NCBI RefSeq assembly: GCF_900114835.1
Contig: NZ_FOUJ01000004.1
Span: 248,001-312,000, forward strand
Source of the DNA: Methanolobus profundi
GTDB lineage: Archaea; Halobacteriota; Methanosarcinia; Methanosarcinales; Methanosarcinaceae
DNA length: 64,000 nucleotides
Reading direction: 5' to 3'
The position numbers and the translations under genes were made by a program. This document shows positions 19,412 through 20,838 of this stretch, one piece after another. Numbering within the stretch: position 1 is the stretch's first letter; each line of letters opens with the position of its first letter. Under the pieces are notes generated by a model, which was given only the letters and a program-made list of their open reading frames with translations, had not been told where the DNA came from and made no database searches.

Positions 19412-19465
19412 ATGATACTCAACACCAAGAACCACAACTGGATGCTGGCATACCTGGGATTCTAG
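19412..19465 (+). CDS. Short leader ORF ending in UAG upstream of pylS (candidate)
   Basis: ATG at 19412 opens 17 codons (MILNTKNHNWMLAYLGF) closed by TAG at 19463-19465. If UAG is read as pyrrolysine the frame continues to TGA at 19583-19585, 57 residues in all, crossing the pylS Shine-Dalgarno (AGGAG, 19494-19498) and overlapping the first 79 bases of pylS in another frame. The TAG lies at the tip of a small inverted repeat (GATTC-TAG-GAATT). An AGGAAGAG string precedes the ATG. It could sense charged tRNA-Pyl, but a chance ORF cannot be excluded. Confidence 0.35.
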   Translation: MILNTKNHNWMLAYLGF

Positions 19466-19506
19466 GAATTAGTACGAAAAAAGGTTAAGATCCAGGAGCT
19501 GTTAGC

Positions 19507-20838
19507 ATGGAAAGAAAACCACTTGATACACTTATTAGCAAGAACGGATTATGGGTGTCCCGTAACGGACGTCTTCACGGAGTGAAGAAGTGCGAGACAT
19601 CACAGAAGTATATAAGAATAGAGATGGATTGCGGAGATATTGTTACTATACGCAACTCCAGAACAAGCAGGTCTGCAAGGGCCCTCAGGAACCATAAGTT
19701 CCAGAAACCCTGTAAGCACTGTCGCCTGTCAGATGACAGGATCAACGAATTCTCAAAGAAGATCTCAAGAAAGACCGAAGCTGAGGTCAAGATCGTACGC
19801 TCTTTCAGGCTGCAACCTGAAAAGCCAGCTGAACCTGTTACAGCAAAACCAGAACAGGTAATTCAAACTAATACACCTTCAACTCACATTCATAATGAAC
19901 CACGGGCTGGAATAACTGCCGATAGTTCCACCAACCACAGATCAGCTCCGAAAACCAGTAAGAGCAATTCCAGCCCTTCCACATCTAATACAAAGAAGAC
20001 TTCCCAGCCACAACAACCAAAGTCCAGGAAAACTGAGTTCACTCCCCTGCAGAAGAACAGGATACTCTCACTTTTAGGACCTGGTGAAATGATATCATTC
20101 TCAAAGGAGAAGCGCTCCTTTGCCGAGCTGGAATCCACCCTGACCTTAGAGCGCAAGAAGGATATCAGAGGTATTTACGAGAACAGTCGCGAGAACTATC
20201 TGGGAAAACTCGAGAGAACAATTACAGAGTTCTTAGTCGACATGGGCTTCCTTGAGGTCAAGTCCCCAATACTCATACCATTCGAATACATGGAAAGAAT
20301 GGGAGTTGGTGAGGACAAGAAGCTATCAGAGCAGATATTCAGGGTTGGCGACAATATGTGTCTGCGCCCAATGCTTGCTCCAGGATTATACAACCACCTG
20401 AGAAAGTTCGATAATGTACTCCCTGACCCTGTCAGGATATTCGAGATCGGTCCATGCTACCGTAAGGAATCAGATGGTAACAGCCACCTTGAAGAGTTCA
20501 CCATGCTCAACTTCTGCCAGATGGGATCCAACTGCACAAGAGAAGAACTTGAGTATCTCATTAAGGAACTACTGGATTTCCTTGGCATAGAGTACGAGAT
20601 AGTAGCTGACAGTTGCATGGTCTATGGTGACACGATCGATGTGATGCACAAAAAGATGGAACTCTCATCCGCTGTTGTAGGTCCTGTTCCAATGGACATG
20701 GACTGGGGAGTTAACAAACCCTGGATAGGAGCAGGTTTCGGTCTTGAGAGATTGCTCAAGGCAAAGCACGATTTCAAGAACATCAAGCGTGCTGGAAGAT
20801 CAGAATCCTACTACAACGGAGTAAGTATCAACCTCTGA
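19507..20838 (+). CDS. pylS: Pyrrolysyl-tRNA synthetase
   Basis: A 443-residue PylRS: N-terminal tRNA-Pyl-binding domain (about 1-95, starting [19 protein letters not shown], with the Cys/His zinc-like site around PCKHC), a variable Ser/Asn/Lys-rich linker (about 100-180), and a class II catalytic domain with motif 2 ([21 protein letters not shown]) and C-terminal motif 3 ([10 protein letters not shown]). It attaches pyrrolysine to tRNA-Pyl for UAG decoding. AGGAG lies eight bases before the ATG. It heads pylS-pylB-pylC-pylD-ramA, with no tRNA gene beside it. Its leader may contain a UAG-terminated ORF. Confidence 0.98.

Follow-up and report, generated by a model that had tools for sequence, protein, structure and literature searches.

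Leader-peptide attenuation controls several amino-acid operons in bacteria (trp, his, leu, and tna): a short leader ORF contains codons for the operon's own amino acid, and the charged tRNA is the signal. The gene for release factor 2, prfB, is autoregulated through an in-frame UGA that lies within the gene itself, with frameshifting as the alternative to termination. The leader of Escherichia coli selAB carries a SECIS-like element, a structured RNA that, together with SelB, is thought to sense its own charged tRNA.

How does the leader of pylS, the gene for pyrrolysyl-tRNA synthetase in the archaeon Methanolobus profundi, compare with these systems? Two features that define leader peptides as a class are found there: a conserved coding ORF in the 5′ leader and a conserved codon, UAG, for the cognate amino acid, pyrrolysine (Pyl). 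As in trp, his, leu, and tna, the ORF is short, the putative control codon specifies the amino acid of the pathway, and the charged tRNA would be the signal; unlike in those operons, the control codon is a stop for which release factor and a charged suppressor tRNA would compete, it is a lone UAG where they have a run of codons, no alternative folds or terminator are conserved, and the setting is archaeal. The likeness to prfB is that competition at a stop codon would feed back on a factor acting at that codon; here, by contrast, the stop ends a leader ORF distinct from the gene, and what competes with termination is sense decoding. The selAB element likewise sits in the 5′ leader of a gene for non-standard amino-acid machinery, but no structured RNA is conserved before pylS. 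The proposed PYLIS hairpin of mtmB, which follows a UAG within a coding gene, is also a feature around a pyrrolysine UAG, yet no comparable hairpin is conserved at the pylS leader. Engineered switches for unnatural amino acids use a leader-peptide UAG, read by a suppressor pair, to control a downstream gene (PMC6412442); they are synthetic and act on transcription termination (through a rut site), whereas the pylS leader occurs in nature, in front of the gene for the synthetase itself. For the balance between stop and pyrrolysine, the one mechanism given in a review is a passive contest of Pyl-tRNA with release factor (PMC9499178). Searches of open-access papers turned up no natural UAG leader before pylS; the main text of a transcription-start study of Methanolobus psychrophilus mentions tRNA-Pyl and how far it lies from the synthetase gene, but no pylS leader or upstream ORF (PMC5378194).

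The locus was examined in a stretch of 64,000 nucleotides of M. profundi DNA (hereafter, the window), for which a preliminary description had reported a 17-codon ORF ending in UAG before pylS and had proposed that readthrough by Pyl-tRNA represses the synthetase gene. The ORF is indeed present, with its ATG at 19412, and the readthrough frame crosses the pylS ribosome-binding site and stops 79 bases into pylS, as described; the distance from UAG to pylS is 41 bases, not 39. With the UAG read as Pyl, the product would be 57 letters long, of which the extension contributes 39. In the 3′ direction, the leader is followed by pylS, pylB, pylC, pylD, and then a ramA-type gene; the three biosynthetic genes have the same direction as pylS and, judging from the spacing, possibly share its operon and are co-transcribed with it. 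The tRNA gene, pylT, lies 12.8 kb upstream of pylS. mtbB, which has an in-frame TAG (16888–18288, minus strand), and mtbC are divergent from the leader-pylS transcript, and one intergenic region is thus common to Pyl users and Pyl makers. About 97 nt 5′ of the leader ATG is a nearly palindromic AT-rich block that may be a TATA box or an operator; most clade-1 Methanolobus have AATATATA between −97 and −107, counted from the leader ATG, and in others it lies farther upstream. The Shine-Dalgarno (SD)-like sites of both the leader and pylS are better than random positions: over all leaders, the leader site has a median energy of −6.2 kcal/mol, versus −2.7 at random positions, and the GAG of the pylS site is invariant across the alignment.

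Table 1. Features of the pylS locus (positions are those of the window)
Feature	Position	Strand	Basis
pylT (tRNA-Pyl, anticodon CUA)	6661..6732	+	ARAGORN; single copy in genome
AT-rich conserved block AATATATATATATGTCGAC, candidate TATA box or operator of the leader-pylSBCD transcript	19315..19333	+	putative role
AGGAAG, weak SD-like site of the leader ORF	19399..19404	+	anti-SD duplex −4.1 kcal/mol
Leader ORF, MILNTKNHNWMLAYLGF then UAG	19412..19465	+	homologous ORF in 38 distinct pylS leaders, coding-type substitution
UAG, proposed decision point (release factor terminates vs Pyl-tRNA reads through)	19463..19465	+	0 changes on pylS tree
Readthrough extension, ends at TGA 19583–19585 inside pylS	19466..19585	+	translation
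AGGAG, SD site of pylS; the readthrough frame runs across it	19494..19498	+	duplex energy −7.2 kcal/mol
pylS, pyrrolysyl-tRNA synthetase, proposed control target	19507..20838	+	NF007083 749.7 bits vs cutoff 550
pylB, pylC, pylD (pyrrolysine synthesis)	20848..23821	+	TIGR03910, TIGR03909, TIGR03911 above cutoff

Does a short ORF before a gene mean anything at all? Taken alone, the leader ORF of the window is not beyond chance, a caution that the preliminary description had itself voiced. On one 373-kb contig of the same genome, 36 of 247 long ORFs (15%) are preceded by an ATG-initiated ORF of 15–40 codons that ends 30–60 nt upstream; 11 of these 36 end in TAG (4.5% of long ORFs). As the stop of long ORFs on this contig, TAG accounts for 22 of 238 (~9%), a set that includes pyrrolysine genes such as mtbB.

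Judged by its conservation in relatives, however, the leader ORF is far beyond chance. The upstream regions of pylS were taken from named genomes (46 loci) and from whole genomes of the family and the order; they were oriented and searched for ORFs, and the leader motif was sought in 112 genomes of the family. A homologous ORF of 16–18 codons precedes pylS in 38 distinct leaders, and every one of them ends in TAG; absence from relatives was what the preliminary description had said would speak against it. According to the motif search, the leader is present in 27 of 27 Methanolobus genomes; it is also found in all five pylS-bearing genomes of Methanomethylovorans and in a few close relatives (G002, G110, G111, and G129), with a decayed copy in G106. 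A Methanomethylovorans genome that has neither pylS nor pylT (G069) has no leader either, and 31 distinct pylS upstream regions of other genera (Methanosarcina, Methanococcoides, Methanohalophilus, Methanosalsum, and others) contain no such ORF. In genera without the leader, pylT is usually found directly 5′ of pylS. A restriction of the leader to genomes in which pylT has moved away from pylS can be rejected, because in Methanomethylovorans pylT lies ~270 nt 5′ of pylS, with the leader ORF between them. Copies before other genes were not found among the 112 genomes: the four matches away from pylS are scattered over unrelated places, at chance level (the one inspected, in G057, is weak), and a rough negative control, in which the motif spacing was off by two bases, gave seven matches. 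The UAG-to-AUG spacing is 43–46 nt in all intact leaders and 31 in one broken copy.

The decayed leader of G106, a genome whose record is labelled ANME-3, accompanies a damaged synthetase gene (L046/L097; in L046, the region 469–3567): close to its start pylS carries a frame lesion, a transposase-type ORF of 511 aa interrupts it, and in the leader the conserved Trp is replaced by Arg and two Leu residues by Arg and Pro, with the UAG kept. This single case fits a leader that would be useful only alongside a working pylS. Several other observations concern individual genomes. Methanolobus vulcani PL 12/M carries pylS twice (L003, L005), both times at the end of a contig; in the two copies the leader is kept from NKNHNW on, and the sequences farther upstream differ. 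The tRNA-Pyl gene is present in two copies in G099 (contig C43, 24442–24711) and in G110 (contig C41, 99127–99927), and two Methanolobus genomes (G041, G048) have pylS and the leader with no pylT match at the threshold used. One Methanosarcina locus (L039, ~2922–3000) contains a 19-codon ORF, MLISVSRGSEYCSWKLAGF, that ends in UAG in frame with pylS 21 nt on; it is absent from other Methanosarcina and is probably due to chance.

Substitution in the leader is of the coding type. By parsimony on the pylS tree, changes at codon positions 1/2/3 number 40/53/97 (chi-square p = 8e-7); conservation is strongest in the last nine codons before the UAG (15/25/57, p = 3e-7), for which the consensus is N-W-I-L-x-(Y/F)-L-G-F. 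pN/pS is 0.49 in frame versus 1.31 and 0.87 out of frame, a value as low as that observed arose in one of 200 column permutations, and the length difference between Methanomethylovorans leaders and the others amounts to whole codons. The peptide matches no known protein family. As for the UAG itself, none of its three positions changes anywhere on the pylS tree, whereas each of the nearby degenerate third positions has undergone 3–12 changes (mean 6.9; Poisson P(0) ~0.001). This turnover was chosen as the main yardstick since stops can be conserved for other reasons: of the pylS, pylB, and pylC stops taken as controls, that of pylC varies (TAA 13, TGA 8) and that of pylS is nearly fixed as TGA (33 of 34), so a conserved stop alone is no proof of special meaning. 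The weight of the UAG conservation comes from its combination with the rarity of TAG and with what UAG means in this operon. To judge from these patterns, the identity of the UAG and the leader peptide are both under selection, and a role of Pyl-tRNA at the leader UAG is well supported, if indirectly.

No conserved RNA fold was found in the leaders: the RNAalifold consensus reaches −1.6 kcal/mol with eight weak pairs, and the leaders share neither a terminator nor alternative structures. A transcription attenuator of the trp/his type, which would combine alternative folds with an intrinsic terminator, is ruled out on these grounds. Rfam covariance models, run over 19000–19800, gave only a chance match far below the gathering score, and a riboswitch, a T-box, or another known structured RNA is rejected for want of a family match; no pairs are predicted between the UAG and pylS, where a hairpin of the PYLIS type would lie. 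The preliminary description had pointed to an inverted repeat, GATTC-TAG-GAATT, around the UAG. The repeat exists in the window but is not conserved (Methanomethylovorans has TTATAGAAG), and a functional hairpin is rejected; the repeat looks like a by-product of the Phe-UAG-Glu codons.

What happens beyond the UAG? In 37 of 38 leaders, neither UAA nor UGA interrupts the readthrough frame before the SD site, as compared to 16 and 26 of 38 for the two other frames. In Methanomethylovorans the sole further in-frame stop before the SD site is another UAG; in these leaders (L020, L021, L043, L045, and L079), a ribosome would have to pass two UAG codons to reach the start codon. Counted from the pylS AUG, the ends of readthrough range between −16 and +209: +79 for most leaders in the group to which the window belongs, +28 for a second Methanolobus group, +4 for all five Methanomethylovorans leaders (the TGA of an ATGA that overlaps the pylS AUG), and −4 for five leaders of the Methanolobus group. 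At least four separate single-base deletions between the UAG and pylS (L008, L031, L044, and the L010/L013/L036/L067 group) have shifted the readthrough end, and the sequence of the extension is not strictly kept. Codons 1–5 after the UAG (E-L/M/I-L/V/I-x-K/R) vary in the manner of coding sequence, with constraint at the second position (changes of 17/5/26, p = 0.001), in a range that was chosen post hoc; codons 1–10 together have no significant codon-position bias (p = 0.29). Selection for a long overlap with pylS is rejected, as synonymous-shuffled PylS sequences give similar open lengths, and the 79-base overlap to which the preliminary description attached its geometry is no general feature. 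Comparison of the leaders establishes a conserved, coding, UAG-ended ORF whose frame, if read through, extends to the start region of pylS; what they have in common appears to be that readthrough would extend to the SD region of pylS or beyond, with no particular overlap. With ends that vary and an overlap at chance level, the shared feature would be that readthrough places a ribosome where pylS initiates.

Competition between Pyl-tRNA and release factor at a UAG, with no need for special mRNA motifs, is a published model (PMC9499178), and in Methanosarcina a plain reporter UAG is read through at 20–30% (PMC2933860). This competition, together with a conserved leader UAG before pylSBCD, suggests a sensor of charged tRNA-Pyl. 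We infer that the leader is translated, that its UAG is read through in dependence on charged tRNA, and that readthrough represses. The pylSBCD transcript would begin with a short translated ORF whose UAG is the control codon. When Pyl-tRNA-Pyl is scarce, release factor would terminate translation at the UAG, 41 nt before pylS, and leave the SD site and AUG of pylS free for new ribosomes. Archaeal post-termination ribosomes hardly reinitiate beyond ~20 nt (PMC10666635); hence, termination at the UAG should neither help nor block separate initiation at pylS, which would start on its own SD site. When Pyl-tRNA-Pyl is plentiful, pyrrolysine would be inserted and ribosomes would run over the pylS ribosome-binding site in another frame, lowering the synthesis of PylS (and perhaps PylBCD). 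Both the enzyme and the pathway that supply Pyl-tRNA would come under negative feedback. The nascent peptide, NW-I-L-x-Y/F-L-G-F, probably adjusts how release factor and Pyl-tRNA compete for the UAG, for example, by slowing release. We assign a probability of roughly one in two to the reading in which the leader UAG senses charged tRNA-Pyl and readthrough across the pylS ribosome-binding site provides negative feedback.

The sign is the more delicate part. Elongating ribosomes crossing an SD site need not be strongly repressive if initiation on the leader is weak, and the leader SD site of this species, at −4.1 kcal/mol, counts against strong repression. Could the same sensor work in the opposite direction, with readthrough delivering ribosomes to the pylS start by translational coupling, a feed-forward activation? 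The ATGA of all five Methanomethylovorans leaders and the −4 end of five Methanolobus-group leaders favor coupled reinitiation, such overlaps being the typical coupling geometry in archaea (PMC10666635, PMC6728339). Most other leaders, including that of the window, end 17–209 nt inside pylS, too far for coupled reinitiation; besides, pylS has a good SD site of its own, and an enzyme made only by way of its own product risks locking itself off. Activation is unlikely, and a repressing sign appears likelier than an activating one for pylSBCD, but the ATGA and −4 ends suggest that the sign may differ between lineages. Repression by readthrough, as put forward in the preliminary description, is thus plausible, though not as stated there, given that these ends would predict activation; as a whole, its autoregulation reading is partly supported.

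Three further explanations compete with these. The NWIL-x-YLGF chain might be an arrest peptide that stalls the ribosome at the UAG, with the duration of the stall controlling pylS through the accessibility or stability of the mRNA: the last nine codons are the most conserved, as expected for action in the exit tunnel, and several lineages tolerate loss of the frame after the UAG. But there is no conserved RNA structure for a stall to switch (consensus −1.6 kcal/mol), and stalling by itself would explain neither why the stop is UAG and never UAA or UGA nor why the readthrough frame is open; we regard this as improbable. Even less can be said for a functional small protein, of 17 aa or, with pyrrolysine, of ~50 aa, that acts in trans. 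Selection of the coding type would be expected of it, and yet the ORF is found only directly before pylS, is very short, matches no family, and has a C-terminal extension that varies freely in length and frame. An ordinary translated leader that keeps the mRNA open for pylS, its UAG devoid of regulatory meaning, would be in keeping with how common short upstream ORFs are in this genome (36 of 247), but it sits so poorly with a conserved peptide and with a UAG that is invariant in 38 leaders of at least four genera-level groups, against a 9% usage, that we give it little credence.

A sensor of charged tRNA-Pyl at the leader UAG would be testable with a small set of reporters, and the leader could serve as a natural control part for genetic code expansion, in which PylS/tRNA-Pyl is a standard tool. 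Viewed more broadly, it is rather probable that the amount of synthetase, and with it pyrrolysine synthesis, is set by the ratio of pyrrolysine insertion to termination at the invariant UAG, so that the ambiguity of the code is itself the signal and the cell tunes how far UAG is read as sense or as stop. If this is true, the leader would be a built-in meter of the UAG stop/pyrrolysine balance, feeding back on the very machinery that sets it.
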